Source of the DNA: Rhodospirillales bacterium
Lineage (GTDB): Bacteria > Pseudomonadota > Alphaproteobacteria > BOG-932 > Roseiterribacteraceae
Assembly: GCA_028291365.1 (NCBI GenBank)
Contig: JAQGIE010000085.1
Span: 1-48,638 of the forward strand
DNA length: 48,638 nt
Reading direction: 5' to 3'
The translations under genes were made by a program, and so were the position numbers. Of this stretch, positions 514-27,233 are shown in pieces. Numbering within the stretch: the first letter of the stretch is position 1; each line of letters starts with the position of its first letter. The notes under the pieces are model-generated. The model ran no database searches. It was not told the origin of the DNA and saw only the letters and a program-made list of their open reading frames with translations.

Positions 514-2715
514 TTACCAGTTGTAGCTCAGACGCGCGCCCAGCGTGCGCGGCCGGCCGAAGAACAAACCATCGAACCCGAGTTGCGGCTGCGTGAATCC
601 GCCGGTCCGGTACGCCACGTCCAACAGATTGCTGGCGAAGAAGCTCAAGCTGACATTGCGGTGGAGCGCATTCCACGAAATGTTGCTCCCGAGCAGAACG
701 TAGTTCTTCTGCTTGAGCGACTCTTCGTTCTCCGGCGTCAGGTAATGGCTGTCCATGTAGGTGCCGCTGACCTGCAGCGTCACGTTGCCGTTGAACAGCT
801 CGAGGTCAGGCGTGTACCGAAGCACACCGTTGGCCCGGAAGTTCGGCGACATCGCCTGGTGGTTGCCGTTATAGATCGGATTGGCGGAGATCAGCTTGCT
901 GTGCAGCACGCCGACGCCGAGGCTGCCTTCCAAACCCGGAGTCAACACGAAGGTCGCGTCTGCGTCCAAACCATAGATTTCAGCGTTACCGATATTGAGC
1001 AGGAACGAGCCCGGCGCGCCGTTGCGCGTGCCGACGCTCAGGATCTGCAGCTGCTTGTAGTCATTGTAAAAGACGCTCGCATTGAAGGCCAGGCGTCGCG
1101 GGATCAGCTCGGTCTTCAGCCCGAGCTCGTAGCTATACAGCGTCTCCTTGCCCGCACCCTTGCCTTCGCCGGGCAGCGCGAAGGTGGTTTTGAACGCGCC
1201 GCTCTTAAACCCTTTGGACGCGCTCGCGAAAATCAGCGTGCCATCGACCGGCTTGTAATTGAGGCTGCCGCGATAGGTGAAGACACCGTCGGACAGTTGC
1301 TCGTGATCGAGAAAGGTCGGCTTGGCAAAATTGTCGGCCAGCAGAAGGCTTTTCTGCTCATCGGTATAGCGGCCGCCGAGCGTGACCGACAGCTTGTCGG
1401 CCAGGTCGATTTCGCCTTGCCCATATAGCGCCCAGGACCGCGTCTGAACCGAGGCGTTGTTCTGCAGTCCCAGTCCATTGCCGGTCGCCGCGATCAGCTG
1501 CGGAACAGCAAAGTTGATGTCGTCCTTGTCGTCGTGGAAGTAGAAGGCGCCTGCGATCCACTTGAAGCCCGTCATCGTTCCCGAGACGCGAACTTCCTGC
1601 GAGAACTGCTTCGCCTTCACGCCTTGGTAGTTATAGAAGAGCGGCGCGACCGAGCCGTCCGCATCCTGCTCGTACAGGCGTTTCACATATTCGAAAGCCG
1701 AGATCGAAACCAGGTCGAGCTCCTCGCCCAGCCTGGCCTTGACGCGTGCAAAACCGCCGACCGCGTCGACATTCTGCGCCAGCCTGGCGATGTCGCTATA
1801 GACGTGCTTGGGGTCGGACACCGTCGTCGGCGTACGGAGTGCGGTGGTACAGGCCCCCGACCTCGCGCGCGCGTCCGAGCACAATTTTCCAGTCACCGGA
1901 TCGAGCAGTCCTTCGAGCACCACCGCGTTCGATTGTCCGCGGACTCGCGACCCGTGGACGTTCAGGAGCAGCTCTACGTCGTCACTGAGATCGATATCGA
2001 CATGCAGGCGGCCGGACAGGTTGTCGTCGGCAGAGAAGCGCGAGTCCCGCAGCGCGTTGTTCTTCTGCCAGCCGTCGTCCCGGATATATTTGAACGCCGC
2101 GCGCGCCCGCACTTTGTTCGACAGCGGCCCGCTGACCGCGCCCTCGCCCGAGACCTGGTTGTAGGAGCCGTACTGCAGCGCGCCGTAGCCTTCGAAGTCG
2201 CCGGTCGGCTTTTTGGTGATCCAGTGTGCAAGGCCGCCGGTGGTGTTGCGGCCGAACAACGTGCCCTGCGGCCCTTTCAGCACCTCGACCCGCTCGACGT
2301 CGAAAATGTCGCCGATATGGGCGGCCATCGTGCCGAGATAGACCTCGTCGACGTAATATCCGACCGGTGGTTCGTTGCCGCCGCCGAAATCATAGAGCTG
2401 CACGCCGCGGATGTTGAGCTGCGGAACGCCGCCATTCTCGCTGAACGCGACGTTCGGTATCTGCTGGAAGACGTCCTGCGGCCGGAGATAGCCCAGGCTT
2501 TGCATTGCGTCGCCGGTGACCGCCGCGATGGCGATCGGCACGTCTCTGAGCTTTTCCTCGCGTTTCTGCGCGGTGACGATGACCTCCTCCATCAGCGTGG
2601 ACTGCGCGCAAGCCGGCGCACCCGCCAACAGAACCGCCGTGCCGAGCAGCCCCGCCGAAGCGGATGCGAGCAGGTTCAGGCGACATCCCAGATCTGAGTT
2701 CGGTGAACTCCCCAT
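514..2715 (-). CDS. TonB-dependent outer-membrane receptor
   Basis: A 733-residue outer-membrane active transporter, normal length for the family. It has a signal peptide (hydrophobic run about residues 13-36 ending in ACAQ), then a TonB box (EEVIVTAQKREEKL) and a plug domain with the hallmark VERVEVLKGPQGTLFGRNTTGG. A beta-barrel follows, ending in FFGRPRTLGARLSYNW with a terminal aromatic residue. An AAGGGA ribosome-binding site precedes the ATG. It is the last gene of the leftward hyuB-hyuA unit, 74 bases after hyuA, so its ligand is probably a hydantoin or related cyclic ureide. The receptor class is typical of sphingomonads and caulobacters, which use such proteins for organic substrates as well as siderophores. 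The substrate is inferred from context only. Confidence 0.9.
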   Translation of the reverse strand: MGSSPNSDLGCRLNLLASASAGLLGTAVLLAGAPACAQSTLMEEVIVTAQKREEKLRDVPIAIAAVTGDAMQSLGYLRPQDVFQQIPNVAFSENGGVPQLNIRGVQLYDFGGGNEPPVGYYVDEVYLGTMAAHIGDIFDVERVEVLKGPQGTLFGRNTTGGLAHWITKKPTGDFEGYGALQYGSYNQVSGEGAVSGPLSNKVRARAAFKYIRDDGWQKNNALRDSRFSADDNLSGRLHVDIDLSDDVELLLNVHGSRVRGQSNAVVLEGLLDPVTGKLCSDARARSGACTTALRTPTTVSDPKHVYSDIARLAQNVDAVGGFARVKARLGEELDLVSISAFEYVKRLYEQDADGSVAPLFYNYQGVKAKQFSQEVRVSGTMTGFKWIAGAFYFHDDKDDINFAVPQLIAATGNGLGLQNNASVQTRSWALYGQGEIDLADKLSVTLGGRYTDEQKSLLLADNFAKPTFLDHEQLSDGVFTYRGSLNYKPVDGTLIFASASKGFKSGAFKTTFALPGEGKGAGKETLYSYELGLKTELIPRRLAFNASVFYNDYKQLQILSVGTRNGAPGSFLLNIGNAEIYGLDADATFVLTPGLEGSLGVGVLHSKLISANPIYNGNHQAMSPNFRANGVLRYTPDLELFNGNVTLQVSGTYMDSHYLTPENEESLKQKNYVLLGSNISWNALHRNVSLSFFASNLLDVAYRTGGFTQPQLGFDGLFFGRPRTLGARLSYNW

Positions 2716-2789
2716 TCCGAATTCCCTTCTTTTTGTGGTCGAGTGATCGTTTCGATGAACGGGTGCTCTTGGACGTTCCAGCCCCGTTT

Positions 2790-4874
2790 TCAGACGCTTG
2801 TATTCGCGTCGTTGATCCGAATGATGATCGCGCCGCTCTGCTGCACGACGAACGTGCAGTCGGGCGGGATGAGCGTCGTGGTGTCGGTTTGGACAATCAC
2901 CGCGGGGCCTGAAATCTGTTGCCCCACCGGCAGCTTGTCCTTGCGGTAGAATGCGGTCTGACGCTCTTCAAGACGACCATCGATCCGGAACGTCGTCGCG
3001 CTCATCCGCACGAGCGCTGCGTCGATGCTGCCGTCCGTGTGTGCGGCGGTTTGCTTGATCTGCGCCAATGGACCGATGCCGCGCACGCGCACATTCACCA
3101 GCTCGATCGGGCTATCGGTGAAAGCATGGCCGTATTCCTGGCGATGGGCGTCGTGGAACCGCGCCGCCGCAGCGGCGATCGCGACTTCATCGATCTCGCC
3201 GGAAGCCAGTGCGATGCGCAGCTCGTAGCCTTGCCCCACATAGCGCGCGTCGGCAAAGCGCTCGTAGCGGACTCCCGACGCAGCCACGCCGTCGCGCTCG
3301 AATTGGCGGCGAAGCACTGTCTCCATGTCCGTCAGGTCCGCGTTTAGCCGGATGTAATCCAGTGCAGCGACGGTCTGGAACTGCGTCCGCACCACGTCAT
3401 ACTTGATGTCGGTGGTGAGCAACCCGATAGCAGAATTGATGCCGGGGAAAGGCGGCACGATCACTTCCGTCATGCCGAGGGAGCGCGCGACCTCGACGCC
3501 GTGCAGCGGCCCTCCCCCGCCGGAGGCGACCAGCGCGAACTGGCGCGGATCGATGCCCTTCTGCACCGTCATGGTGCGGATGGCATTCGCCATATTGGCG
3601 TTCAAGATGTTGATCACGCCTTCTGCGGCGTCGAGCTTGGCGATGCCGAGCTCATCGGCGAGCTTTTGAATGGTGCTGTCGGCCGCCACCTCGTCGAGTT
3701 GCATGGCGGCACCGAGGAAATTGTCCTTGTCGAGCCGGCCCAGCACCACGTTGGCGTCAGTCACGGTGGGAAGCGTGCCGCCACGCGCATAGGCGGCCGG
3801 TCCCGGCACGGCGCCCGCGCTCATCGGTCCGACGCGGAAACTGCCCAGATCGACATGCGCGATCGAGCCACCGCCCGCCCCGATCGTGTGCAGGTCGATC
3901 ATCGGGATCACGACGGGGTAGCCCGACACCATCGTGTCACGCGCGCTTGCTTCGGCAAGCTGACCGTCGCGGACGACGCCGATATCTGCACTGGTCCCAC
4001 CGATATCGAGGCAGATCACGTTGCGCCGCCCGGTCAACGCCCCGACCCATGCGCCGCCGAGAATGCCGGCAGCGAGGCCCGACATCAGCGTCGAGGCCGG
4101 CAAGGTCGCAATCATGGAAGCGGTCGCCATGCCGCCGTTCGAGCTCATGATCCTGAGCTCGGCGCGCATACCGGCTTGCTTCAGGGCCGTGTCGAGACTG
4201 GCCACATAGTCGCGCACGAGCGGGCCGATATAGGCGTTCATCAGGGTCGTGGTGAACCGCTCGAACTCGCGGAACACCGGCGCGGTCTCGCTCGACGTGG
4301 TGACGAAGATATCGGGGCAGACTTCCTGGACGATCGCTTTGGCGCGGCGCTCGTGTTCAGGGTTGAGATACGAAAACAGAAAGCAGATCGCCACCGCCTG
4401 CACGCCTTCGGCTTTCAGTTCGGCAGCGGCGGCGCGCACCGCGGCTTCGTCGAGCGGCTTCAGCACCTCGCCACGCGGCGGCACGAGCCGTTCCGGGACC
4501 GTCTTGATATGGCGACGCTTCACCAGCGGCCGCGCCTGCCATGGAATATCCTGCTTGATGGAATAATGATGAGGGCGCTGGTGCCGCCCGATATAGACGA
4601 CGTCGCGAAAACCCTCGGTCGTGATCAGCCCGGTGCGGCAGCCCTTGTTCTCGATGACCGCATTAGTCGCCACGGTGGTGCCGTGGAACACGATTTCGAT
4701 CTCGTGTGGCGGAACCGCCTCGCGCTGGCAGATCTCGAGCACGCCGCGCATGACTGCGATCGACGGGTCGTGCGGCGTGCTCGGCACTTTGTGAATGCGC
4801 ACGCTGTCGTCGGCGGTGTTCGTGAGCACCACGTCGGTGAAGGTTCCACCGACATCTACGCCGATAAGTTTCAT
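2790..4874 (-). CDS. hyuA: Hydantoinase/oxoprolinase subunit A (N-methylhydantoinase A type)
   Basis: This 694-residue protein has the actin-like ATPase fold of the hydantoinase A/5-oxoprolinase family. The N-terminal phosphate-binding motif is IGVDVGGTFTDVVL, and the second nucleotide motif is CLDIGGTSADIGVV in the middle. A glycine-rich IGAGGGSIAHVD stretch and VASGGGGPLHG follow, with the C-terminal family domain near 500-690. With HyuB it forms an enzyme that opens hydantoin-type rings at the cost of ATP, in the cytoplasm. It lies 28 bases downstream of hyuB. The neighbouring carbamoylase and racemase favour 5-substituted hydantoins over 5-oxoproline, although sequence alone does not separate the two (acetone carboxylase subunits are also related). 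Confidence 0.92.
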   Translation of the reverse strand: MKLIGVDVGGTFTDVVLTNTADDSVRIHKVPSTPHDPSIAVMRGVLEICQREAVPPHEIEIVFHGTTVATNAVIENKGCRTGLITTEGFRDVVYIGRHQRPHHYSIKQDIPWQARPLVKRRHIKTVPERLVPPRGEVLKPLDEAAVRAAAAELKAEGVQAVAICFLFSYLNPEHERRAKAIVQEVCPDIFVTTSSETAPVFREFERFTTTLMNAYIGPLVRDYVASLDTALKQAGMRAELRIMSSNGGMATASMIATLPASTLMSGLAAGILGGAWVGALTGRRNVICLDIGGTSADIGVVRDGQLAEASARDTMVSGYPVVIPMIDLHTIGAGGGSIAHVDLGSFRVGPMSAGAVPGPAAYARGGTLPTVTDANVVLGRLDKDNFLGAAMQLDEVAADSTIQKLADELGIAKLDAAEGVINILNANMANAIRTMTVQKGIDPRQFALVASGGGGPLHGVEVARSLGMTEVIVPPFPGINSAIGLLTTDIKYDVVRTQFQTVAALDYIRLNADLTDMETVLRRQFERDGVAASGVRYERFADARYVGQGYELRIALASGEIDEVAIAAAAARFHDAHRQEYGHAFTDSPIELVNVRVRGIGPLAQIKQTAAHTDGSIDAALVRMSATTFRIDGRLEERQTAFYRKDKLPVGQQISGPAVIVQTDTTTLIPPDCTFVVQQSGAIIIRINDANTSV

Positions 4875-4902
4875 ATGCTTGCCGTCTGGTCCGATGTCGC
4901 TG

Positions 4903-6702
4903 TCACTCGCCGCGCGCTGGGGGCGCGTTGCGGAAAAGCCTGGTTCGTTCGAGGTCCACGCCCTGGTCGCCGATCACCACCGCATAGTCCTGCGCGGCCT
5001 GTTCGACGGTGATGAGGTCGTCGCAAACATCCTGGTAGACCTGCTGCGGATCGCGCGATTTGGGCGAGCCGTAGCCGCCGCCGGTGCCGCCGATGCATAC
5101 CAACCGGTCGCCGCGACTCACCTGGATGGTCGGCAGCATGGATGGCAGCTGGATGCGCTGGCCGTCCGCCGTGGCGAGGATCAGCTCGGAATTGTAGCCT
5201 TCCGCACCGCCGTCGAAGCCCCAGGCCGCAACCTTGTGGTTGTCGCTCTCGGCGCTGACGCTTCCGTCGCAGAGAAACTCGATTTCCTTGACCGAGTTGA
5301 CGCCGCCGCGCCACCTGCCCGCCGCGACCGCATGGTCGCGAAACTCGTAACGCACGACGCGCAGCGGAACGTGGCTCTCGATGTCCTCGATCGGGTTGTT
5401 GCGCGTGTTGGCATAGAGCGTATCGACGCTGTCCATGCCGTCCTTGCCGTAGCGGCCGCCATATGCGCCCTCGAAGATTTCGAGGTGCACCCATTGCTGC
5501 CCCTCCAGAAACCCCGAAAAGGCAACGCCGCGGAGACTTCCGGTCCCGGCCGAGACGGACTGCGGCACCGCCGGAGCGAGCGCACGCATCACCGTATCGG
5601 CGACGCGGTTGCCGCCGGTGGCCCGCGCGATGGTCGGCGCGGGCTCGATCGGATTGACGAGCGTACCGCGCGGCGCGGTGATGGTGATCGGACGGAAAAG
5701 GCCGTCATTCTGCGGCACGTTGAGGAATTCCGCCGAGTCCAGCAGGATGGTGCGCAGCATCAACCGCACCGCGACATCGACCGTGCCGACGAACGGCATG
5801 TTGATCGCGTGATGCTCCAGCTGCGGCGCGGTTCCGGTGAAGTCGACGGCGATATCATCGCCGCGTACCGTCACCGCCACCTCGATCGGCAGCATGCTGA
5901 GCGCCGGATCGGCGCTGTCGAGGAAGCCGTCGATGTGCCCGGTGGCGCGATACACCCCGTCCGGCACTTTGGCGATCTGGCTGCGCATCAGACGCTCGGA
6001 ATAATCGAGCAGATCTTCGACGGCGCCCCACAACGTTTCGGCGCCATAGCTGCGGTAGAGTTCGAGGAAGCGGTTGGCGCCAACCCGGCAGGCGGCGATC
6101 TGGGCTTCCATGTCGCCGAGAACGAGGTCTGACATGCGCACGTTGTCGGTGATCATCTGCCACGCAACGTCGTTCAGCTTGCCGGCATCGACGATCTTGA
6201 GCGCGCGGAAAATGACGCCCTCGGCATAGCGATCGACGCATTCGACCAGGCCCATGCTGCCCGGCTGTGCCGAACCGAGATCGAGATGGTGCGCCGTGGT
6301 CATCGAGAAGCCGATCAGCGTCTCGCCATCAAAGATCGGCATGCAGAATCCGACATCGGGGCTGTGCGACGCGCCGCGATACGGATCGTTGTGGATGATG
6401 ACGTCGCCGGGCGCGAATCGATGGCCGCGCTCTTCGAACAGCTTCTGGATGCCTTTGACGTAGCCGGGAATCGGACCGGACTGCAGCGGCGTGCTCTTGC
6501 TGCATTCGCAGAGTTGCCGGCCCACCGAGTCGCAGATCGCGGCGCCGAAATCTTCCGATTCTCGAATGATGCTCGAGTAGGACATCCGCATGAGCTTGAA
6601 GCCCATTTCGACCGCGATATTCTCGAGCGCGCCTTGAATGACGCTCGCCGTAACCGGGTCGATGCGAGGACCTGCGGTGCGTTGGGCAGCCGAGCCAACC
6701 AT
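4903..6702 (-). CDS. hyuB: Hydantoinase/oxoprolinase subunit B (N-methylhydantoinase B type)
   Basis: The 599-residue partner of HyuA and first gene of the leftward unit. Family landmarks are IDPVTASVIQGALENIAVEMG at the N-terminus, the SIIRESEDFGAAICD segment, GDVIIHNDPYRGASHSPD, and the C-terminal glycine-rich IGGTGGGYGSP. HyuB subunits carry the hydrolytic site that works on the substrate phosphorylated by HyuA; this is family knowledge. The length matches other HyuB proteins. The ATG is preceded by GGGA and lies 139 bases from the divergently transcribed oxidoreductase gene, so transcription probably starts in that gap. The alternative reading, 5-oxoprolinase subunit B, is less likely given the hyuC and hyuE neighbours. 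Confidence 0.92.
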   Translation of the reverse strand: MVGSAAQRTAGPRIDPVTASVIQGALENIAVEMGFKLMRMSYSSIIRESEDFGAAICDSVGRQLCECSKSTPLQSGPIPGYVKGIQKLFEERGHRFAPGDVIIHNDPYRGASHSPDVGFCMPIFDGETLIGFSMTTAHHLDLGSAQPGSMGLVECVDRYAEGVIFRALKIVDAGKLNDVAWQMITDNVRMSDLVLGDMEAQIAACRVGANRFLELYRSYGAETLWGAVEDLLDYSERLMRSQIAKVPDGVYRATGHIDGFLDSADPALSMLPIEVAVTVRGDDIAVDFTGTAPQLEHHAINMPFVGTVDVAVRLMLRTILLDSAEFLNVPQNDGLFRPITITAPRGTLVNPIEPAPTIARATGGNRVADTVMRALAPAVPQSVSAGTGSLRGVAFSGFLEGQQWVHLEIFEGAYGGRYGKDGMDSVDTLYANTRNNPIEDIESHVPLRVVRYEFRDHAVAAGRWRGGVNSVKEIEFLCDGSVSAESDNHKVAAWGFDGGAEGYNSELILATADGQRIQLPSMLPTIQVSRGDRLVCIGGTGGGYGSPKSRDPQQVYQDVCDDLITVEQAAQDYAVVIGDQGVDLERTRLFRNAPPARGE

Positions 6703-6774
6703 GATCGACGATCGTCCCTTTCAGCGTTCGCCAGACGCCCTTGCGACGCCGGCAGTGCGGCTACCTACCCAGGA

Positions 6775-6798
6775 AGTGACCTTGACGTCAACTCCACT
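6775..6798. promoter_or_regulatory. Palindromic operator candidate in the divergent hydantoin promoter
   Basis: The 139-bp gap between hyuB and the oxidoreductase gene holds a perfect 10-bp palindrome TTGACGTCAA (6782-6791). It is flanked symmetrically by AGTG (6775-6778) and CACT (6795-6798), each three bases away. Eighteen of 24 positions obey the dyad. The palindrome also supplies a TTGACG hexamer that could be a -35 element for the rightward operon, with TGAATT (6805-6810) 17 bases on as a weak -10. Size and placement suit the TetR protein encoded at the end of that operon. The regulator-site pairing is inferred. Confidence 0.5.
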
Positions 6799-6841
6799 AC
6801 GTGATGAATTTCGATCGGATCCGAAGCAGTTGCGAGGAGCG

Positions 6842-7819
6842 ATGCGCGCAATCACGATCGAACGAACCGGTTCGCCGGATGTCCTTCAGCTCTGCACCGT
6901 GCCCGATCCGCAACCGAGCGAACGTCAGGTCCTCGTCGACGTCGCCTATTGCGGGTGCAATTGGGCCGACACGCAGGTGCGCGCCGGCATCTATCCGCAT
7001 CCGATGAGCTATCCGCTGATTCTCGGATTCGAAGTGTCCGGCGTCATCTCGGCGGTCGGCCCGCAGGTGACCGGCTTCGCAGTCGGTGACCGTGTCTGCG
7101 CGATCGGCGGCGGTGGCGGCTATGCCGAACGCGTGGTGATCGATGTCGACGACCTGATCCCGCTACCTGACAATATCCCGCTCGATGTTGCGGCTGCGTT
7201 CCCGATCCAGGCGCTGACCGCGTATCACATGCTTCATACCGTCTATCGGCTGAGCGCAGGCGACACCGTCCTGTGCCACGCGATCGGCGGCGGTGTCGGG
7301 TCCTATGTGACCCAGCTGGCCGTGATGGCAGGCGCGCGGGTGATGGGTACGGTTGGCACGCCGGGCAAGGAAACCCTGCCGCTCAGCTACGGCGCTGAAC
7401 GTGTGGTCAACAGCCGTACCGAAGATTTCGTCGAGGTGGCGCGCCAGCTCACCAGCGGACGCGGCATCGACGTCGCCATCGACTCGCTCGGCGCCACCAC
7501 GCTGGACCGGACCTATGACGTGATGCGCAATCTCGGCCACGTCATCAGCATCGGTGAGGCCGAAGGCCAGCCGTTCAACAATATCCGCGAACGCATCTTG
7601 CCCAAGTCGCTGTCCTTCACGCGGTTCCACCTGAAGCATATCGATGCGACCTCGGCAGTTTGGCGGAACGGGTACGTGACGGTGCTGGAAGCCATCGCCC
7701 GCGGCGTCCTCAACGTGCCGATCGTCAAACGATACAAGCTGCCTGAGGCCGCCGAGATGCACCGCCAGCTCGAAGGCCGCAGCGTATCGGGCAAGCTGCT
7801 GCTGGCGATGCGGGACTGA
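6842..7819 (+). CDS. Zinc-independent quinone oxidoreductase (MDR/QOR family)
   Basis: A 325-residue medium-chain dehydrogenase/reductase. It has the GroES-like N-terminal half (GFEVSGVISAVGPQVTGFAVGDRV) and a Rossmann half whose NADPH loop reads HAIGGGVGSYVTQLA instead of the usual AAGGVG. The catalytic zinc ligands and the four-Cys structural zinc loop of alcohol dehydrogenases are absent, placing it with NADPH:quinone reductases and zeta-crystallins. The ATG at 6842 was chosen because GAGGAG lies five bases upstream and the family N-terminus (MRAITIERTGSPDVLQL) begins there. It leads the rightward hydantoin operon, 13 bases before hyuC. Its role in hydantoin metabolism is not known; it may reduce an unsaturated or carbonyl substrate. 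Confidence 0.85.
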   Translation: MRAITIERTGSPDVLQLCTVPDPQPSERQVLVDVAYCGCNWADTQVRAGIYPHPMSYPLILGFEVSGVISAVGPQVTGFAVGDRVCAIGGGGGYAERVVIDVDDLIPLPDNIPLDVAAAFPIQALTAYHMLHTVYRLSAGDTVLCHAIGGGVGSYVTQLAVMAGARVMGTVGTPGKETLPLSYGAERVVNSRTEDFVEVARQLTSGRGIDVAIDSLGATTLDRTYDVMRNLGHVISIGEAEGQPFNNIRERILPKSLSFTRFHLKHIDATSAVWRNGYVTVLEAIARGVLNVPIVKRYKLPEAAEMHRQLEGRSVSGKLLLAMRD

Positions 7820-7832
7820 GCCGAGGCCCGAC

Positions 7833-9077
7833 ATGACGAACTCGATGCGTGTGAACCAGGCGCGGCTGTGGGACAGCCTGATGCGCATGGCCGAGATTGG
7901 CGCACTGCCCGCGGGCGGCTGCTGTCGGCTGGCGCTGAGTCCGGAGGACGGCGCCGGCCGCGACCTTTTCGTGCAATGGTGTCGCGAAGCCGGTTGCGAG
8001 ATCGCGGTCGACCAGGTCGGAAATATCTATGCGCGCCGACCGGGTCGGGATCGCACCGCGCCGGCGGTCGCGATCGGAAGCCACCTCGACACCCAGCCGC
8101 ATGGAGGCAAGTTCGACGGTATCTATGGCGTGCTGGCCGGCCTCGAAGTCGTCCGCACGCTCAACGATCGCGGTGTCCAGACCGACGCGCCGATCGACGT
8201 GATCGTATGGACCAACGAGGAGGCGGCGCGCTTCACGCCGCCCCTCTCCGGCTCTTCGACTTTCATCGGCGCGCTCGCCCCTGAATTCGTGCACGCGGTG
8301 AAAACGATCGACGGCACGCTGGTGCACGACGACCTGGTTCGCATCGGCTATCTCGGGAACGAGGTGCCCGGTACACGCAAACTGGATTCGTTTTTCGAGC
8401 TGCATATCGAACAAGGCCCGATCCTCGAGGCCAAGGCGCTCACGATCGGTGTGGTGACGCAGATCCAGGGTCTGCGCTTCATGACCGTCACGGTCGAGGG
8501 CGAGGACGGGCACGCCGGCACCTTGCCGATGGATCTGCGCCGCGACGCGCTGACCGGCACCGCGCGCATGATCCTGTTTCTCAACGAGCTCGCTCGCACA
8601 ACCGACGACAAGGCCCGCATCACGGTCGGAATGCTGCAGCTCAGCCCCAACTCGGGCAGCACCGTGCCGGGGCGGGTTCGCTTCACCATCGACCTTCGGC
8701 ATCCCGATGCCGAGACGCTCGGCCGACTCCAGACCGCGATCCGTCACGGCCTCGCCGATCTCGCCGCACAATCGAATCTGGCGCTCGCAATCGTCGACGA
8801 CATGGCGAAGCAGCCTGTCCATTTCGATTCGCAGATCCAGACGCTGATCCAGGAGGCCGCCAACGTTCTCGGCCTGCCGAGCTCCCGCATGCTGAGCGGC
8901 GCCGGACACGACGCGATGAACCTCGCGCAGATCGTGCCGACCGGCATGATCTTCATTCCGTGCGCCGGCGGCATCAGCCATAACGAAGCGGAAAGCGCCG
9001 ATCCGGCCGACGTGGCCGCGGGGGCCAACGTGCTGCTGCATGCCGTGGCCGCGCGCGCCACTTGGAGACATGCATGA
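7833..9077 (+). CDS. hyuC: N-carbamoyl-L-amino-acid hydrolase (M20 family)
   Basis: A 414-residue two-metal amidohydrolase that removes the carbamoyl group from N-carbamoyl amino acids, giving the amino acid, CO2 and ammonia. The metal ligands are visible in order: His and Asp in GSHLDTQPHGGKFDG, the Glu pair in WTNEEAARF, His in ELHIEQGP, and the C-terminal His in CAGGISHNEAE. The small dimerisation domain (about 210-330) includes GHAGTLPMDLRRDAL. Length and motifs match HyuC/AmaB; allantoate amidohydrolases and beta-ureidopropionases are close relatives, but HyuA/B and a hydantoin racemase next door decide the call. Its TGA overlaps the ATG of the transporter gene (ATGA), suggesting coupled translation. 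Confidence 0.93.
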   Translation: MTNSMRVNQARLWDSLMRMAEIGALPAGGCCRLALSPEDGAGRDLFVQWCREAGCEIAVDQVGNIYARRPGRDRTAPAVAIGSHLDTQPHGGKFDGIYGVLAGLEVVRTLNDRGVQTDAPIDVIVWTNEEAARFTPPLSGSSTFIGALAPEFVHAVKTIDGTLVHDDLVRIGYLGNEVPGTRKLDSFFELHIEQGPILEAKALTIGVVTQIQGLRFMTVTVEGEDGHAGTLPMDLRRDALTGTARMILFLNELARTTDDKARITVGMLQLSPNSGSTVPGRVRFTIDLRHPDAETLGRLQTAIRHGLADLAAQSNLALAIVDDMAKQPVHFDSQIQTLIQEAANVLGLPSSRMLSGAGHDAMNLAQIVPTGMIFIPCAGGISHNEAESADPADVAAGANVLLHAVAARATWRHA

Positions 9078-10240
9078 CCTACGCGCAAGGTGGCCGCTAT
9101 TTCGGCGCCAACGCGGCCATAACGGCCTGCCTCGTTGCCGCCATTGCCAATATTCCGTTCAACGTGATGCCGATGATTCTCGGCGCCGCGGCGGATGCGT
9201 TCCAGCTCGTGCCGGCGCAGATCGGTCTGCTCGGCGGTTGCACGCTGATCGGCTGGGTGGCGGGAACCGCCCTCTCCTTCTTCATCGTGCACCGGCTGAA
9301 CTGGCGCTTCGTCGCGACCGTAGGAACGATCGTGGCCGTGCTCGGGCTGCAGCTCTCGCTTCACCTGCCCGGCGTCGCTGCGCTCGATCTTTGCTGGTTC
9401 ATTCTCGGGCTCGGTGCGTCGCTGCCGACTTGCATCGCGTTCGAGATTCTCGGCAAGACCGCGAATCAGGAACGCTATTTCGGCACGATGACGCTTGCGG
9501 TCGTGCTGATCAGCGCGGTCGTGCTTTGGCTGTTCCCGATCTTTCTGCTCTCGCGCTGGGGCTATACCGGCCTGGTGTTCGGTCTCTCGGCGCTGTTCCT
9601 AGTGCAGATCGCCTTCACTTTGATGGTCCCGGCCGGACCGCTGCATGCCGGCGAGCGCCGGACCGTCCCGCACCAAGCGGCGATCTCGCGTCCCGCGCAA
9701 CTGGCACTCGTCGCGTTCCTGATCTTCTTCACCGGCGAATCCGGTCTCTGGGCCTTTCTCGAACGTGCCGGGCGTGAGATTGCGATCGCTCCGGAAGAGA
9801 TCGGCACCATTCTCGCGGTGCTCAAAGTGGTCGGCGGCATCGCCACCGCGATGCCGATCCTCATCGCCAAACGGCTGGGCGACCGCTGGCCGTTCGTCGC
9901 GGGCTTCATCGGCACCGTGGTCGCGGTCGCTATCCTGCAACTCAGCTCTTCGTCGCTCTTCTATGCGATCGGCGGATGGATCTGGGAATTCTTCTTCACC
10001 GTGATGTTCTGCTACACGACCGCCGCGATCGGCCGGCTCGATCGCAGCGGCCGTATCGTCGTGCTAGTGCCGGGTGCGATCGGCCTCGGCGGCGCGATCG
10101 GGCCGACCGTTGCGGGCTTCCTAAAGGTCGGCACCGGCTATCTGCCGATCTATGGCTTCACCACCGCCTGCATATTTCTCAGCACGTGCATCATGCTCGC
10201 GCTGTTGCGCAGGCCGGCTCAACAAGAGGCGCTCGCATGA
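9074..10240 (+). CDS. MFS transporter, probable hydantoin or carbamoyl-amino-acid carrier
   Basis: A 388-residue integral membrane protein with about 12 hydrophobic segments, for example AITACLVAAIANIPFNVMPM, LSFFIVHRL, LALVAFLIFFTGESGLWAFLE and ISTCIMLALLRR-like terminal helices. The layout is a major-facilitator one with two halves joined by a basic loop near residues 190-205. The start at 9074 is the ATG overlapping the hyuC stop; GGAG lies seven bases upstream. An upstream in-frame TTG (9062) would add four residues. Its stop in turn overlaps the hyuE ATG. Known hydantoin importers (Mhp1/HyuP) belong to the NCS1 family, so this would be a different family in the same role. Substrate and direction are inferred from the operon. 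Confidence 0.85.
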   Translation: MTYAQGGRYFGANAAITACLVAAIANIPFNVMPMILGAAADAFQLVPAQIGLLGGCTLIGWVAGTALSFFIVHRLNWRFVATVGTIVAVLGLQLSLHLPGVAALDLCWFILGLGASLPTCIAFEILGKTANQERYFGTMTLAVVLISAVVLWLFPIFLLSRWGYTGLVFGLSALFLVQIAFTLMVPAGPLHAGERRTVPHQAAISRPAQLALVAFLIFFTGESGLWAFLERAGREIAIAPEEIGTILAVLKVVGGIATAMPILIAKRLGDRWPFVAGFIGTVVAVAILQLSSSSLFYAIGGWIWEFFFTVMFCYTTAAIGRLDRSGRIVVLVPGAIGLGGAIGPTVAGFLKVGTGYLPIYGFTTACIFLSTCIMLALLRRPAQQEALA

Positions 10241-10983
10241 TGCGCATCCTCGTCATCAATCCCAACACCAGCATCGAGATGACCGCCAGCATCGATGCGG
10301 TGGCGAAAAAATACGCCGCGGCGGATACGGTGCTCACCACCCTGTCGCCTGCGTACGGACCGCGCTCGATCGAATGCCATTACGAGGAACAGATCGCCGG
10401 GCTCGCCACGATCGAGACGGTGGCCCAACTCGAAGCCGAGTATGACGCGTTCGTGATCGCCTGCTACGGCGATCCCGCCGTCGATGCGTGCCGAGAGATC
10501 ACCAACAAGCCGGTGATCGGCATCGGCGAAGCGTCGATGCACATGGCGTGCCTGCTGGGCCACAAATTCTCAATCGTGACGGTGATCCCGCGGGCCGTGC
10601 CGATCATGGAGGACCTGGCGCGCAAGATCGGTCTCGAGAGCAGATGCGCCTCGATCCGCTCGACCAGCCTGACCGTGCTCGAGATCGAAGCTGATCCCGA
10701 TCGCGCCGTCATTGAAATGGTTGCTGAAGCCAAGGCTGCGATCGCGCAGGACGGGGCCGAGGTGATCTGCCTCGGCTGCGCCGGCATGGGGCCGCTCGAC
10801 GATCGCGTACAGGATGCGGTCGGCGTCCCGGTGCTGGACGGCACCGTCTGCGCAGTGCTGCTGGCGCAATCCGCCGTGGCTTATCGCAAATCGACGAGCA
10901 AAGCCGCTGCCTACGCGCCGCCCGGAAAGAAGGAACTGGTCGGCTGCTCACCCGTGCTCAACCGGATCAGCTTGAATGGTTGA
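10237..10983 (+). CDS. hyuE: Hydantoin racemase (Asp/Glu racemase superfamily)
   Basis: A 248-residue cofactor-independent racemase that interconverts D- and L-5-substituted hydantoins, so that an enantioselective pathway can use both. The family N-terminus RILVINPNTS is intact. The two catalytic cysteines sit at Cys76 (VIACYGDP) and Cys181 (ICLGCAGM), the same positions I recall for the characterised rhizobial hydantoin racemases. A third segment, KPVIGIGEASMHMA, is also typical. It begins with ATGATG; the first ATG overlaps the transporter stop. Allantoin racemase is the main alternative within the superfamily, but no other allantoin genes are present. Confidence 0.92.
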   Translation: MMRILVINPNTSIEMTASIDAVAKKYAAADTVLTTLSPAYGPRSIECHYEEQIAGLATIETVAQLEAEYDAFVIACYGDPAVDACREITNKPVIGIGEASMHMACLLGHKFSIVTVIPRAVPIMEDLARKIGLESRCASIRSTSLTVLEIEADPDRAVIEMVAEAKAAIAQDGAEVICLGCAGMGPLDDRVQDAVGVPVLDGTVCAVLLAQSAVAYRKSTSKAAAYAPPGKKELVGCSPVLNRISLNG

Positions 10984-11060
10984 GAAGGCTGGCCTGGATC
11001 CAATGCTGGGCCTATATCCAGATCGGCAAGGCAGGCAGTGATGATGCCAAGAAGAACCGC

Positions 11061-11723
11061 ATGAAAGAAAGCCAGCAGCCTGTGTCCGGCCTGGGCAACA
11101 AGGCGATCGCGACGCGGGAGAGTCTGAAGCAGGCTGCGGTCCGCCTGATCAACCTGCATGGGTTCAGCAGCGTTCGAGTAGAGGACATCACGATCGAGGC
11201 CGGGGTCGCCAAAGGCCTGTTCTACCGCTATTTCACAAGCATCAACGACATCACCCACGTCGTCTGCGAGGAGCTGTTCCAGAGCATCCTGCAGGAGTCG
11301 CTGACCAGGACCTACGATAGCAGCGTGCCGGCGTATGACTGGCTGTTCGACTATGTCTCGATCCCGGTGAGAAAGTTCGTACAGAATCGCGGCCTGCTCG
11401 CCTGCATGTTCGAGCTGCACGGTTCCTTCCCTGAGATCAGCAAGGCCTGGCAGACCACCGCGCATGAATGGAACCTGCACCTCGAAGAATTCGTCCACAA
11501 AGCCGGCGGGCACAACAAGCGCGAAGCGAAGGAATTCTGCTATATACTCGGCGCCGCGATGGAAGGGATCATCTACCAGTCGATCATCCGCAACACGCCG
11601 GACTTGAAGAAGATCGCCTCCAGCGCGGCATCGATCACCGAGATCATTACCAAGATGTGGTACAGGGTGATCTTCCTGGACAGTCCGGCGAAGCGATCCC
11701 CCGCGGCTAAGAAGACAGCCTGA
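11061..11723 (+). CDS. TetR-family transcriptional regulator
   Basis: A 220-residue repressor-like protein. The N-terminal helix-turn-helix reads HGFSSVRVEDITIEAGVAKGLFYRYFTSINDI, the standard TetR DNA-binding unit; residues 70-220 form the all-helical ligand and dimer domain. I chose Met at 11061 because it gives the normal family length, although its ribosome-binding site is weak (AAGAAG). The same frame is open from a TTG at 10980 that overlaps the hyuE stop as TTGA, so a longer coupled product is possible. As the last gene of the rightward hydantoin operon it is the obvious candidate to sense the substrate and bind the palindrome at 6775-6798. Confidence 0.88.
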   Translation: MKESQQPVSGLGNKAIATRESLKQAAVRLINLHGFSSVRVEDITIEAGVAKGLFYRYFTSINDITHVVCEELFQSILQESLTRTYDSSVPAYDWLFDYVSIPVRKFVQNRGLLACMFELHGSFPEISKAWQTTAHEWNLHLEEFVHKAGGHNKREAKEFCYILGAAMEGIIYQSIIRNTPDLKKIASSAASITEIITKMWYRVIFLDSPAKRSPAAKKTA

Positions 11724-11994: not shown

Positions 11995-13881
11995 ATGACG
12001 CGCACGGTTTTGATTTCGACGATGCTGGCTGGCTTGCTCGTTGCTGCCGCTGCGCATGCAGTCGAGCCCGCAGATAAGTTGAAGAGCGATATCGAAGCGA
12101 CCTGCGCCGCGTATGAAAAAACCGACGTGATGATCCCGATGCGGGATGGCGTCCGGCTGCACACCGAAATCTATCGCCGCAAGGACCAGACCGGGTCGAC
12201 CGCGATCCTGATGAATCGCACGCCGTATGGAATCGACAGCGCCACCTATCCCTGCACGCCGACACTGACCACCGGGCTGCAGCCGTTGCGCGACGACGGC
12301 TACATCGTCGTGTTCCAGGACATTCGCGGGCGCTTCAAATCCGAAGGCTCGTTCGAGATGCTGGGCCCGCTGCGTCATCTCACCGATCCGAAAGCGACCG
12401 ACGAAAGCACCGACGCCTGGGACACGGTCGACTGGCTGGTCAAGAACGTGCCCGACAACAACGGCAAAGTCGGCGTCACCGGCGTTTCGTATGGCGGCTG
12501 GACGTCGATGATGGCGGGCATCGACGCGCATCCCGCCGTCGCCGCCGTGTCGCCGCAAGCCTCGCCGATCGACACCTGGATCGGTGACGATTTCTGGCGC
12601 AACGGTGCCTTCCGCCTGAATTACGGCTTCGAGTACACCGGCGCGATGGAACTGTCGAAGACGATGGAGCCGTTCGCCTTCGACGAAACCGATTCCTACG
12701 CCTGGTATCTGAAACAGGGCGCGCTCAAGAATTTCGACACGCGCATCATCGGCGGCCGCAGCCGCTTCTGGTCCGAAATGATGCAGCACCAGACGCATGA
12801 CGGCTATTGGAGCGGCCGCAACTTCACGCGCGAACTGCGCAACGTGCGCGTGCCGGTGCTGAGCACCGCCGGCTGGTGGGACGCGGAAGATTTCTATGGC
12901 CCGCTACAGATCAGCAAAGGACTGGGATCGAACGGCACGCTGGTGGTCGGCCCATGGACGCACGGCAGCTGGAACAGCGCCTATGCCGAAAATAAACGTG
13001 GCATCGCGCCGCTCGATTTCGGCGCCGACACCGGCGCCTATTGGCGGCAGGAGATTCAGCGCTCGTTTCTGGCCCATTACCTGTTGGGCAAGCCGGCACC
13101 GGATCTGCCGCGTGCGCTGTCGTTCCGCACCGGCGTCAATCAATGGATGCGTTATGACGCCTGGCCACCCAAGCCCACGCAGGGCGTGCAATCGCTGGCG
13201 CTCGGCTGTGACGGCACGATCGCGCTCAACGCGCCGCCGGCGACCAAGCCGTGCCGTGCATCCTACGTGTCGGACCCGGCCAATCCGGTTCCGTACCTGT
13301 CGCGTCCGTTCGGTCCGTTCTATGGCGGGCGCGGGGTCGACAAGACATACCGGTCGCGCTGGCCGAGCTGGGAAGCGCAGGACCAGCGTTTCGCGGCCAA
13401 CCGTCCCGACACGCTGCTCTTCACCAGCCCGCCGCTGACGGAGCAATTCGTGCTGACCGGTGAGGCCGAACTGACTTTGCACGTCACCACGACGGGCACC
13501 GACGGCGATTTCATCGTCAAGCTGATCGACATCTATCCGCCGACCGATCCCGAACATTGGGAAATGGCGGGCTACCAGCTGATGCTCGACCATGTCGTGC
13601 AGCCGGGCCGCTATCTCGAAGGCAACGCGGCGCCCAAAAAGATGCAGCCTGGGCGCGTCTATGAAGTGAAGTTCCATTTCACCGGCAACGATCACGCTTT
13701 CCTGCCCGGCCACCGCATCGCATTGCAGGTGCAGAGCACGCTGTTCCCGGTCATCGCGCGCAATCCGCAGACCTATGTCGACAACATCTTCGAGGCCCGG
13801 GATTCGGATTTCCGGCCGGCGAAGATCGAGATCGTGTTCGGTCCCGGACAGGCGAACAGGCTGGCCTTGCCGCGCAACTGA
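11995..13881 (+). CDS. Secreted CocE/NonD-family alpha/beta hydrolase (S15-like)
   Basis: A 628-residue exported serine hydrolase. Residues 1-22 form a signal peptide ending AAAHA. The hydrolase domain carries the nucleophile Ser165 in GVTGVSYGGW. The likely acid is in AGWWDAEDFYG and the His in VGPWTHGSW, the triad arrangement known from cocaine esterase and X-Pro dipeptidyl peptidases. The C-terminal third (about 440-628) is the jelly-roll domain of the family (ELTLHVTTTGTDGDFIVKLID, then the HRIALQVQSTLFPVIARNPQT strand). GGAGG lies eight bases upstream of the ATG. Family members act as acylases, glutaryl-7-ACA acylases or esterases; the substrate here is unknown. It follows the hydantoin operon in the same direction but after a 271-base gap, so it is probably separately transcribed. 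Confidence 0.88.
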   Translation: MTRTVLISTMLAGLLVAAAAHAVEPADKLKSDIEATCAAYEKTDVMIPMRDGVRLHTEIYRRKDQTGSTAILMNRTPYGIDSATYPCTPTLTTGLQPLRDDGYIVVFQDIRGRFKSEGSFEMLGPLRHLTDPKATDESTDAWDTVDWLVKNVPDNNGKVGVTGVSYGGWTSMMAGIDAHPAVAAVSPQASPIDTWIGDDFWRNGAFRLNYGFEYTGAMELSKTMEPFAFDETDSYAWYLKQGALKNFDTRIIGGRSRFWSEMMQHQTHDGYWSGRNFTRELRNVRVPVLSTAGWWDAEDFYGPLQISKGLGSNGTLVVGPWTHGSWNSAYAENKRGIAPLDFGADTGAYWRQEIQRSFLAHYLLGKPAPDLPRALSFRTGVNQWMRYDAWPPKPTQGVQSLALGCDGTIALNAPPATKPCRASYVSDPANPVPYLSRPFGPFYGGRGVDKTYRSRWPSWEAQDQRFAANRPDTLLFTSPPLTEQFVLTGEAELTLHVTTTGTDGDFIVKLIDIYPPTDPEHWEMAGYQLMLDHVVQPGRYLEGNAAPKKMQPGRVYEVKFHFTGNDHAFLPGHRIALQVQSTLFPVIARNPQTYVDNIFEARDSDFRPAKIEIVFGPGQANRLALPRN

Positions 13882-23148: not shown

Positions 23149-25338
23149 TCAGGCGGTCATCACGATCTCGAGATCCTCGCTGCGGGACAGCGAGGTCAGC
23201 GACACCGCCTCGCCGTGGCGCCGCAGCAGCACGTCGGCGCGCGCTTCGCCCAGCCGCAGATTTTCGATCAGCAGCTCGTCCATCCAGGGCGGCAGCGCCG
23301 GGCGCGTAAAGCGGATCTGCCGCCCCGACGGATCGAAGCTTACGCCCAGCATCGCACCCAGGATCGCGAACACGCTCGCCGCCGCCCAGGCTTGCGGGAT
23401 GCACGCGACCGGGTACGCGGTGGGACCGGCGCCGGGGCGACGCTCGAAGCCGCAGAACAATTCAGGCAACCGGGTCAGGTCCATCTGCATGGCGCTGTCG
23501 AACATGCCGGTCAGCAAGCGGGTCAGTTGGCGCTGCTTGCCGTACCGCGCCAGCCCCATCGCGATCAGCCCGTTATCGTGCGGCCACACCGAACCATTGT
23601 GATAGCTCATCGGATTGTAGCGCGCCGCGCCGGTCGCGATGGTGCGGATCCCCCATTCCGAGAAGAAGTCGGGCGCCAGCAGCGCGCGCGCGACACGATC
23701 GGCGCGCTCCGGCGACGCGATGCCGCCGAACAGCGCATGGCCCGCGTTCGACGAGCGCACGCGACAGGGGCGCTTGTCGCCGTCGAGCGCCAGCACGTAC
23801 AGGCCAAGCTCCTCGTCCCAGAATTCATTCTCGAACGCGACGCGAAGATTCTCCGCCTTGGCTGCGAGCGCGCTCGCCTGGCCGCGTTCGCCGAGCAGAT
23901 GCGCAAGCCGTGCCGCCTCACGCCACGCGGCGAATGCGTAGGCCTGCACTTCGGCGAGCGCGATCGGCGCTTCGGCGAGACGCCCGTCGGCGTGAAACAC
24001 CGAGTCGGCCGAATCCTTCCAGCCCTGGTTGATCAGCCCGTTTACCGACTTGCGGTCGTATTCGAGCAGCTGGTCGCCATCGAGATCGCCATAGCGCTCC
24101 ATCCAGCCCAGCGCTTCCTGGATGCTGGGCCACAGCTCGCGCACCAGCTCGAGGTCGCCGGTGCGCTGCTCGTAGGCGCCGGCGAGGACGACGAACAACG
24201 GCGTCGAGTCGACGCTGCCGTAATAGTGACCGAACGGCACTTCGCCGAGCTCGGCCATCTCGCCGCCGCGCGTCTCGTGCAGGATCTTGCCCGGTTCGGC
24301 GTCCTTGGAGGGATCGAGCACGTGCGCCTGCGTCGCGGCGAGGTAGCGCAGCGTGCCGGCAGCAAGATCGGGATCGAGCCACAGCGTTTCGAGCGCGGTG
24401 ATGATGCCGTCGCGGCCGAACGGGCACGAGAACCAGGGGATGCCGGCATAGGGATAGCGGCCGCAGCTGGTCTCGGTGATCAGCATGTCGAGATCGGCGC
24501 GGCTGCGATGCAGCCAGTCGTTGAACAGCGCATTGCCGCTGATCAGCCGCACCCGGCTTTTCGCTTCTTCCGCGATGCGCTCCTTGGTCTCGGCAAGCAC
24601 GCTTACGAAACCGCGCCGCCGCACAAGCGCGCGGTCGCTCCCGCACAATATTTCAACGTCGATCGTGCGTGCTTCGCCCGGCGCCAGGATCCAGTCCCAG
24701 CGCATGCGCCTTGTCACCCAGGAATCGGGCGCGGGATCGACGATGATGCGGGTCGAGCGCATCACATTGTCGAGCCCTTCATAGGCAAGCACGACGGTAT
24801 TGCCGACACGTTCGTCGCGGCGCTGGCGGCCGCGCTGCGCGCGCACCATGCCGCGCACCTCGAAGATGTCGGCAAAATCGGCGGCGTAGCCCATCTCGAT
24901 CCGGATCTTGGCCGGCGCGACGCCGAAATTGTGCAGGTTGAGCCGTTCGTAGAGCGCACCGTGATCGAGCACCTTGGTGCGCAGCACGTGTACCGTGTCG
25001 CGTGGCTGCACGACACGCTCGCCGTCGAGCAGATCCGGATTGGTCAGATCGACCGCGATGGTCGCGTTCTCGGAGGTGACGCTCGACGACAGCAGCAGCG
25101 GACGCTGACCTTCGATCGTCAGCGTCAGTTGCGACAGATGCCGCGTGTCGCGATGAAACAGGCCTTCGGCCGCGGGACCGGTCGCCTGCGCATCGCCGAA
25201 CGGGTCGAGCACCACGAACGTGTCGCCCTGCTTGAGCACACGTGGCCGATAGCTGGTCGTCGCCGCATTAGCGGGAATGTAGAACGGGCCGACCTCGGCT
25301 TCGTCGTGAAGCGTCTCGACCGCCGAAGGACGTGTCAT
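23149..25338 (-). CDS. Amylo-alpha-1,6-glucosidase-type glycogen-debranching protein
   Basis: A 729-residue cytoplasmic protein. The N-terminal 200 residues match the GDE_N_bis type of debranching-enzyme domain (DTFVVLDPFGDAQATGPAAE, then GLFHRDTRHLSQLTLTIEG). The remainder is an (alpha/alpha)6 barrel with landmark stretches GIPWFSCPFGRDGIITALE, GHYYGSVDSTPLFVVL and YHNGSVWPHDNGLIAMGL. Acidic residues in these stretches are candidates for catalysis. GGAGGAG precedes the ATG. It lies 22 bases downstream of a GT4 glycosyltransferase gene. Such enzymes trim alpha-1,6-linked glucose, but some members act on other glycans. No glgA/B/C/P gene is in the window, so the exact substrate stays open. Confidence 0.88.
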   Translation of the reverse strand: MTRPSAVETLHDEAEVGPFYIPANAATTSYRPRVLKQGDTFVVLDPFGDAQATGPAAEGLFHRDTRHLSQLTLTIEGQRPLLLSSSVTSENATIAVDLTNPDLLDGERVVQPRDTVHVLRTKVLDHGALYERLNLHNFGVAPAKIRIEMGYAADFADIFEVRGMVRAQRGRQRRDERVGNTVVLAYEGLDNVMRSTRIIVDPAPDSWVTRRMRWDWILAPGEARTIDVEILCGSDRALVRRRGFVSVLAETKERIAEEAKSRVRLISGNALFNDWLHRSRADLDMLITETSCGRYPYAGIPWFSCPFGRDGIITALETLWLDPDLAAGTLRYLAATQAHVLDPSKDAEPGKILHETRGGEMAELGEVPFGHYYGSVDSTPLFVVLAGAYEQRTGDLELVRELWPSIQEALGWMERYGDLDGDQLLEYDRKSVNGLINQGWKDSADSVFHADGRLAEAPIALAEVQAYAFAAWREAARLAHLLGERGQASALAAKAENLRVAFENEFWDEELGLYVLALDGDKRPCRVRSSNAGHALFGGIASPERADRVARALLAPDFFSEWGIRTIATGAARYNPMSYHNGSVWPHDNGLIAMGLARYGKQRQLTRLLTGMFDSAMQMDLTRLPELFCGFERRPGAGPTAYPVACIPQAWAAASVFAILGAMLGVSFDPSGRQIRFTRPALPPWMDELLIENLRLGEARADVLLRRHGEAVSLTSLSRSEDLEIVMTA

Positions 25339-25360
25339 GACTCCTCCAAACGCCGCGCGC

Positions 25361-26476: not shown

Positions 26477-26534
26477 TTTCTTGGGTCCCTCTGCCGGTGA
26501 GCAGTGAACCGGAGAATGTCCCAGGAAGTTCCGC

Positions 26535-27173
26535 TTACGGCGGTGGTGCGTCCGGCTGGCGTTCCGGTGCCGCGTCGATGAATGGCTGTTGCCTCGCCGC
26601 TTCTTCGTCAATGGCGAGTAGTTTCGGGTACGGCGTCAAATCTACACTGAAACGCCGCGCGTTGTAGAGCTGCGGCACGATGCAGATGTCGGCGAGGCTG
26701 GCGCGATTGCCGACCGCAAATCTCGTGCTGCCTTCGATCATGGCCTCGACCGCCGCGAGTCCGGTGGTGATCCATTTGTGCAGCCACGCGGTCATTCGCG
26801 CATCGTCCTGCCCCATCTCGGCGCGCAGATAGGCCTGCACGCGCGTATTTCCGAGCGGGTGTACGTCGCACGCGATGAGCTGCGCGATGGCGCGCGTACG
26901 CGCCCGGTCATATTCATTGTCGGGCAGCAGGTTCGGTCCCGACACGGTCTCGTCCAGCCACTCGCAGATGGCGAGCGACTGCAGCAGCACGCGCCCGTCA
27001 TCGGTGACCAGGGCCGGCACCACGCCCGATGGACTCAAGGCGAGATAGTCGGGCGAGAACTGCTCCTGCTTCACCAGGTGCACCGGCACCTGTTCATAGG
27101 CGGCGCGCTTGAGGTTGAGCGCGATACGCACACGATAGCTGGCGGATGAGCGCCAATAGCCGTAAAGTTTCAT
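26535..27173 (-). CDS. maiA: Maleylacetoacetate isomerase (zeta-class glutathione transferase)
   Basis: A 212-residue GST-fold enzyme that uses glutathione to isomerise maleylacetoacetate to fumarylacetoacetate in tyrosine breakdown. The zeta-class signature SSASYRVRIALNLK, with the catalytic Ser-Ser, is at residues 9-22. The conserved SPSGVVPALVTDDG loop (cis-Pro) and QSLAICEWLDE glutathione-binding helix follow. The C-terminal helical domain holds GNRASLADICIVPQLYNARRF. 4-Hydroxyphenylpyruvate dioxygenase, an earlier step of the same pathway, is encoded at 30012-31085, but homogentisate dioxygenase and fumarylacetoacetase are not in the window. The last 12 residues are Pro-rich. Confidence 0.92.
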   Translation of the reverse strand: MKLYGYWRSSASYRVRIALNLKRAAYEQVPVHLVKQEQFSPDYLALSPSGVVPALVTDDGRVLLQSLAICEWLDETVSGPNLLPDNEYDRARTRAIAQLIACDVHPLGNTRVQAYLRAEMGQDDARMTAWLHKWITTGLAAVEAMIEGSTRFAVGNRASLADICIVPQLYNARRFSVDLTPYPKLLAIDEEAARQQPFIDAAPERQPDAPPP

Positions 27174-27185
27174 CCTGCCGGTGTA

Positions 27186-27233
27186 GCGCGTTTTCCCGCG
27201 AAGTGGCTACCGGTTCGCGGAGAGAAAACGCGC
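27186..27233. repeat. Long interrupted palindrome, Rhizobiales-type dispersed repeat
   Basis: Two nested inverted pairs: GCGCGTTTTC (27186-27195) with GAAAACGCGC (27224-27233), and CCGCGAA (27196-27202) with TTCGCGG (27214-27220). A 3-base bulge (AGA) and an 11-base loop make a 17-bp stem. From memory, close variants (GAAGTGGATACCGGTTCGCG flanked by AAAACGCG) occur many times between genes in Bradyrhizobium-like genomes. Only one copy is seen here. It also lies where a terminator for the leftward cupredoxin operon would be. Confidence 0.7.

Follow-up and report, generated by a model that had tools for sequence, protein, structure and literature searches.

A stretch of 48,638 nucleotides (hereafter the window; contig JAQGIE010000085.1 of the Rhodospirillales assembly GCA_028291365.1) carries the genes for HyuA, HyuB, HyuC and HyuE together with those for a TonB-dependent receptor, an MDR oxidoreductase, an MFS-type carrier and a TetR-family regulator. 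The enzymes are of known kinds and their assembly is unusual: three components, namely the receptor, the carrier of the inner membrane and an oxidoreductase that recurs in such loci, stand outside the textbook set. Judged from the sequences, the four Hyu proteins probably form an enzymatic route from a hydantoin to an amino acid, and it is fairly likely that the locus as a whole serves the catabolism of a 5-substituted hydantoin or of a related cyclic ureide. The oxidoreductase, rather than the receptor, is the recurring extra component, a point missed in a preliminary description of this DNA. It is probably a true pathway member and thus a hitherto unrecognised candidate. The receptor may import the pathway substrate, a more tentative assignment.

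Gene content and arrangement

All eight genes are intact according to the list of open reading frames and to Pfam and NCBIfam profile matches. The gene content and the two-arm arrangement given in the preliminary description stand, as does its claim of a full HyuA/HyuB/HyuC/HyuE complement, all four being encoded together.

514–2715, minus strand: TonB-dependent outer-membrane receptor (Pfam PF00593, barrel, 124 bits; PF07715, plug, 60 bits)
2790–4874, minus strand: HyuA, ATP-binding subunit of an ATP-dependent hydantoinase (Pfam, 298 bits; tree)
4903–6702, minus strand: HyuB, metal-binding hydrolytic subunit (Pfam, 476 bits)
6703–6841, no strand: divergent intergenic region of 139 bases, with the palindrome TTGACGTCAA at 6782–6791
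6842–7819, plus strand: MDR oxidoreductase of the quinone oxidoreductase/enoyl-reductase type (domain matches, tree clade)
7833–9077, plus strand: HyuC, M20 amidase of the carbamoylase/allantoate amidohydrolase family (domain matches, motifs)
9074–10240, plus strand: MFS-type carrier, very divergent (Pfam, 33.3 bits; hydropathy)
10237–10983, plus strand: HyuE, two-cysteine Asp/Glu/hydantoin racemase (Pfam, 196 bits)
11061–11723, plus strand: TetR-family regulator (start uncertain; open frame from 10980)

The Pfam matches of HyuB, HyuA and HyuE are far beyond chance. In the left arm, gaps of 28 bases (hyuB–hyuA) and 74 bases (hyuA–receptor) separate the genes, and the terminator scan found no terminator-like site between hyuA and the receptor gene; matches in the promoter and terminator scans were no more numerous than in shuffled sequence. 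In the right arm, 13 bases lie between the oxidoreductase gene and hyuC. ATGA overlaps at hyuC–MFS (from the frame coordinates) and at MFS–hyuE (read in the sequence) suggest translational coupling of these pairs. The TetR protein may control both arms from the divergent region. The palindrome TTGACGTCAA was considered as its operator and set aside: no second exact copy exists in the window, yet with one mismatch allowed the number of matches (2 vs 0.99 expected) was not above chance.

Catalytic enzymes

HyuA (Hydant_A_N and Hydantoinase_A domains) and HyuB (Hydantoinase_B domain) score over the domain cut-offs and belong to the ATP-dependent hydantoinase/oxoprolinase (lactamase) family. Members of the hydantoinase/lactamase family are described as sharing fold and motifs across diverse activities (PMC8453981). 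Residues D7 and D290 of HyuA align to the phosphate-site aspartates D11 and D295 of the caprolactamase subunit CapA, and D51, H113, D116 and H138 of HyuB to the metal ligands D41, H99, D102 and H124 of CapB, the reference residues being those named in the same article. The best solved relative of both subunits is the N-methylhydantoinase 7hk5 (650 bits for HyuA, 439 bits for HyuB), with caprolactamase 6yra behind it (411 and 185 bits). The caprolactamase models NF050156 and NF050157 gave 569 and 245 bits vs cut-offs of 1000 each. An identity of HyuAB as a caprolactamase or a plain 5-oxoprolinase was dropped on model cut-offs, clade and gene linkage.

HyuC retains the motifs GSHLDTQ, KFDGI, NEE, HIEQG and SHNE. 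It exceeds the cut-offs of TIGR01879 (hydantoinase/carbamoylase family amidase; 439 vs 204 bits) and of an NCBIfam subfamily named allantoate amidohydrolase (553 vs 452 bits). With the AllC equivalog TIGR03176 it reaches 266.6 vs 597.75 bits, and on this ground an AllC-type allantoate pathway was ruled out. Among solved structures, the L-carbamoylase 8apz matches HyuC with 369 bits and AllC 1z2l with only 215 bits. In HyuE, C75 and C180 (numbered from the ATG at 10240) represent both racemase cysteines. Both positions are occupied by Ser in 3qvk, which otherwise resembles 3qvj, and these serines are read as active-site mutations; the first cysteine position is Gly in 5lfd. The best solved match of HyuE is an allantoin racemase (191 bits).

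HyuA clade and gene linkage

The reading of the substrate as hydantoin-type is supported mainly by the linkage of the HyuA clade to carbamoylase, racemase and C-N hydrolase genes. A total of 89 distinct HyuA loci were compared: the 80 best of 568 relatives in scanned GTDB genomes, 8 from the first relatives search, and L146 and L176, less one duplicate (L065 and L041 are a single locus). Bit thresholds for linkage were set by hand after a first look (HyuC 100, HyuE 150, C-N hydrolase 120, oxidoreductase 250), and the C-N hydrolase queries came from the clade loci themselves, favouring their detection there. The genomes are drawn samples and the counts no census; absences at some loci (e.g. L063, L073) mean little because the flanks are short.

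At HyuA identities of at least 50%, 26 of 32 loci harbor HyuC (10), HyuE (10) or C-N hydrolase (12) genes within 10 kb. The fraction is 5/15 at 45–50% identity, all with C-N hydrolase, and 0/42 below 45%. In the tree, the focal HyuA falls into a clade of 32 rows (support 100), with 26 of the 31 other members linked to one of the three genes. N-methylhydantoinase 7hk5 lies outside, in a sister clade of 20 rows (support 93). The hyu genes of the relatives are often collinear, e.g. in Agrobacterium MWF001 and Peribacillus CK6, and accompanied by ABC or NCS1 carriers.

MDR oxidoreductase

The oxidoreductase is rare. At E up to 1e-80, matches were found in 9 of 385 genomes of the class, the source genome included, and among 72,556 plasmid records two matches occurred at 1e-60, both beside hydantoinase, racemase or carbamoylase genes. 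Together with its relatives the protein forms a clade of 12 rows (support 100/99). Within this clade the gene adjoins hyuAB in L042, L146 and Sulfitobacter SK012, and lies between the genes for HyuE and an M20 amidase in Paracoccus yeei. In L145 and L148, roughly 5 to 7 kb separate it from a HyuA gene that belongs to another clade. It lies near a creatininase gene in L149 (297 vs a cut-off of 235 bits) and near a biuret-hydrolase-like gene, below cut-off, in L150; a PuuE-like gene near one relative scored 412 vs 424.6 bits. No such neighbours were seen in L143, L144 and the short contig L147. The 11 other clade members thus comprise four adjacent to hyuAB or hyuE/hyuC, four with related genes nearby and three without, as raw counts for this clade alone. 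A truncated copy (50% identity) at the edge of locus L061 was left out of the tree.

The best solved match is a 2-haloacrylate reductase (176 bits), suggesting the reduction of a polarised C=C bond. The enzyme would perhaps reduce an unsaturated side chain or an ylidene bond of the ring compound; this is the weakest step of the mechanism proposed here, and the chemistry as worded is unlikely to be exactly right. The recurring oxidoreductase is a specific candidate for an unassigned step in hydantoin or ureide breakdown, a lead of use for enzymatic amino acid production and for interpreting the many unannotated HyuA/HyuB clusters. Distant MDR oxidoreductases (29–30% identity) are encoded just before HyuA in two actinobacterial loci (L080:3457-4428, L081:8265-9284).

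TonB-dependent receptor

Plug and barrel domains of the receptor score over cut-off, and a signal peptide and a TonB-box-like EEVIVTAQKR were recognized by eye. Its best whole-protein NCBIfam match is a siderophore-receptor subfamily, below threshold (186 vs 223.5 bits). The source genome encodes 54 receptors, counted as barrel-domain matches. A receptor lies within about 9 kb of six of the eight HyuA-type genes in that genome (C46, the focal one, C69, C31, C34, C60 and C234); the remaining two, on the short contigs C215 and C87, have none. At C69 and C31 the receptor is adjacent to and codirectional with the HyuA-type gene, as at the focal locus (3/8 in total). With the focal locus set aside, a receptor lies no more than 9 kb away at 5 of the 7 HyuA-type loci, for which an even scatter of receptors gives a P of about 0.007. 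On plasmids, the receptor's two closest relatives are surrounded by genes of a catabolic kind (carriers, aldolases, dehydrogenases and the like), and the annotation shows no gene for siderophore synthesis within 6 kb.

TonB-dependent uptake of hydantoin by this receptor is plausible. If the receptor does import hydantoins, TonB-dependent uptake would extend to small cyclic ureides, on which the literature searches made for this analysis turned up no report.

On C31 (L162:4830-11021) a receptor gene is followed by genes for a short HyuA-type protein, an S-Me-THD-family protein and an NCS1 carrier; the source genome may thus contain a second unit of receptor, carrier and enzyme. Contig C34 resembles it, with an NCS1 carrier, a HyuA-type gene and a TonB receptor about 6 kb on (L163; contig 23261-33355). 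A HyuA clade of Sphingomonadales and Niveispirillum, distinct from the focal one, has receptors nearby in 8 of 10 rows; one of the two receptor-less rows, L122, has a left flank of only 146 bases. Its loci L118, L123-L127, L130 and L131, forming a separate HyuA/HyuB clade with a TonB receptor near, contain HMG-CoA-lyase-like genes (by eye), an isochorismatase-family hydrolase (L123, Pfam) and an Asp/Glu racemase (L126, Pfam). At L160:6618-11323, a BKACE enzyme, HyuA and HyuB are encoded consecutively, and the cluster has a TonB receptor at each flank.

Inner-membrane carrier

The MFS name of the carrier is just below threshold because its Pfam score is 33.3 bits vs a cut-off of 33.4; a hydropathy scan indicated many hydrophobic segments. 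The preliminary description had placed this protein in the role of the usual NCS1 carrier. The position of the gene agrees with that in part, as other clusters of the clade (L177, L178, L180) carry NCS1 or ABC carriers at this place, but the MFS protein has no close relative: one match at 30% identity was found in the 385 class genomes and one at 28% on plasmids. The focal cluster has no match to NCS1 (PF02133). Elsewhere in the genome PF02133 matches just twice, on C31 and C34, each time near a HyuA-type gene.

Proposed pathway and alternative explanations

In the proposed mechanism, the ring compound would cross the outer membrane via the TonB receptor and the inner membrane via the MFS carrier. 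HyuE would interconvert the enantiomers. HyuA would activate the ring with ATP, and HyuB would open it to an N-carbamoyl amino acid, from which HyuC would remove the carbamoyl group as ammonia and CO2, yielding the L-amino acid.

Several observations weigh against one hydantoin pathway equipped with its own importer and reductase. The preliminary description had proposed active outer-membrane capture and had named missing linkage of the receptor to hyuA/B in relatives as a refutation of it; a receptor stands near none of the 32 HyuA clade loci (at least 50% HyuA identity), which formally counts against that proposal. This is a weak test because the clade hosts checked have 0 to 6 receptor candidates (first look at the four nearest: G084 0, G032 3, G068 1, G005 6) and some members of the clade are Bacillota, Chloroflexota or Actinomycetota. 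The receptor scans scored 2 to 11 candidates per genome. Of the receptor-rich orders, those of G356 (279 genomes) and G042 (10 genomes) yielded no member of the HyuA clade at E up to 1e-170. Among 82 genomes from the order of G177, 7 had a HyuA match at E up to 1e-150, one with 59% identity and the rest with 41–44%. Matches to the receptor above 35% identity were absent from the 385 class genomes, and none of five plasmid hyu loci has an annotated receptor. Within 2 kb, only 2 of the 7 other HyuA genes have a receptor (P about 0.09), and receptors may generally lie near catabolic genes. As to the enzymes, HyuC does not track the HyuA clade (33–47% identity to its HyuC members) and its plasmid matches reach 51.5% identity, in Azospirillum, while HyuE is equally near to allantoin racemases and hydantoin racemases. 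No HyuA-type gene lies less than about 10 kb from the nearest oxidoreductases (G358, 62%; G281, 61% identity).

The receptor could, with a probability only slightly below that of an import role, be a bystander, one of the 54 of the genome placed beside hyuBA by chance or serving e.g. a siderophore, hydantoins being small enough for porins. The missing linkage at the clade loci, the lack of a detected orthologue and the sub-threshold siderophore-receptor match fit this explanation. The short codirectional gap to hyuA free of a terminator-like site, the like arrangement at C69 and C31, and the catabolic surroundings of the nearest plasmid relatives speak for a functional association with hyuA.

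For the substrate, allantoin or N-methylhydantoin (from creatinine) would make the locus a nitrogen-scavenging ureide system instead of a general route for 5-substituted hydantoins. The HyuE match to an allantoin racemase, the allantoate amidohydrolase-named subfamily of HyuC, and the creatininase and PuuE-like genes near oxidoreductase relatives point in this direction; the low AllC equivalog score of HyuC and its proximity to the L-carbamoylase, the placement of 7hk5 in a sister clade, and the presence of both cysteines in HyuE vs Gly in 5lfd render it unlikely. Opening of another cyclic amide by HyuAB (5-oxoproline, caprolactam or a cyclic imide), with neighbours from different pathways, would accord with the diverse activities of the family. 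It is very improbable in view of the carbamoylase and racemase linkage across the HyuA clade and the low scores in the caprolactamase models; moreover, the genome encodes a separate fused HyuA-HyuB protein of 1202 amino acids, oxoprolinase-like, on contig C215. A bolder extension is conceivable, if rather doubtful: in receptor-rich members of this lineage, hydantoin-family ring openers would come together with their transport, a HyuA-type enzyme being grouped with a TonB receptor for the outer membrane and with a carrier of the MFS or NCS1 type for the inner one, as at the focal locus and on C31. TonB uptake of cyclic ureides would then be a new transport function, and the MDR oxidoreductase a new enzyme of cyclic-ureide breakdown, reducing an unsaturated ring compound ahead of HyuE and HyuAB.

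Relation to known systems

Pseudomonas sp. NS671 reportedly possesses an L-hydantoin system of HyuA, HyuB, HyuC and HyuE. By description, the focal locus has the same four enzyme kinds, and it differs in its two divergent arms and in the additional TonB receptor, MDR oxidoreductase, MFS carrier and TetR regulator. A plasmid of Peribacillus frigoritolerans CK6 encodes HyuA (54% identity), HyuB (58%), HyuC (33%) and HyuE (44%) in the order hyuA, hyuB, Zn hydrolase, NCS1, racemase, NCS1. That cluster lies on a single strand with NCS1 carriers and a sigma-54-type regulator, and the Gram-positive host has neither the oxidoreductase nor a receptor there. The Agrobacterium MWF001 plasmid keeps ABC, hyuA, hyuB, racemase and Zn hydrolase genes together. 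On a plasmid of Sulfitobacter sp. SK012, the oxidoreductase gene (49%) is divergent to hyuA-hyuB (58 and 60%). The divergent split of the focal locus is therefore not a unique arrangement. SK012 has an N-carbamoyl-D-amino-acid hydrolase, a dihydropyrimidinase and an ABC carrier, and no receptor. The Paracoccus yeei plasmid encodes HyuE (45%), the oxidoreductase (51%) and the M20 amidase (38%) consecutively; HyuAB are absent from this stretch, which contains a PuuE-like ring opener and an ABC carrier and no receptor. N-methylhydantoinase 7hk5, the nearest solved relative of both subunits, differs in being a single fused chain.

Literature searches linking TonB with hydantoin, hyuA, hydantoinase or N-methylhydantoin, and quinone oxidoreductase with hydantoinase, yielded no such locus, as judged by titles and the beginnings of abstracts. 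One article names TonB and hydantoinase families only as separate halotolerance-linked clusters (PMC10040529). The main text of a review on TonB transporters is without the words hydantoin and ureide (PMC11658791). Putative hydantoinases have been reported, along with a racemase, on an island that is transferable, so operons of this kind can move (PMC12595487). Background on hydantoinase processes is given elsewhere (PMC10952681, PMC7431475).

Further features of the window

Directly after tetR, a CocE/NonD-type hydrolase with an apparent signal peptide is encoded (11995–13881, plus strand). Its membership in the cluster is uncertain; a role in the periplasm alongside the receptor is conceivable. 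Beside the receptor gene, at the contig edge, positions 52–483 may encode part of a tyrosine recombinase (integrase SAM-like domain, below threshold with 20.2 vs 22.3 bits). A putative RND efflux pair (35979–40336) and putative molybdenum-hydroxylase-like subunits (43976–47226) were recognized by eye.

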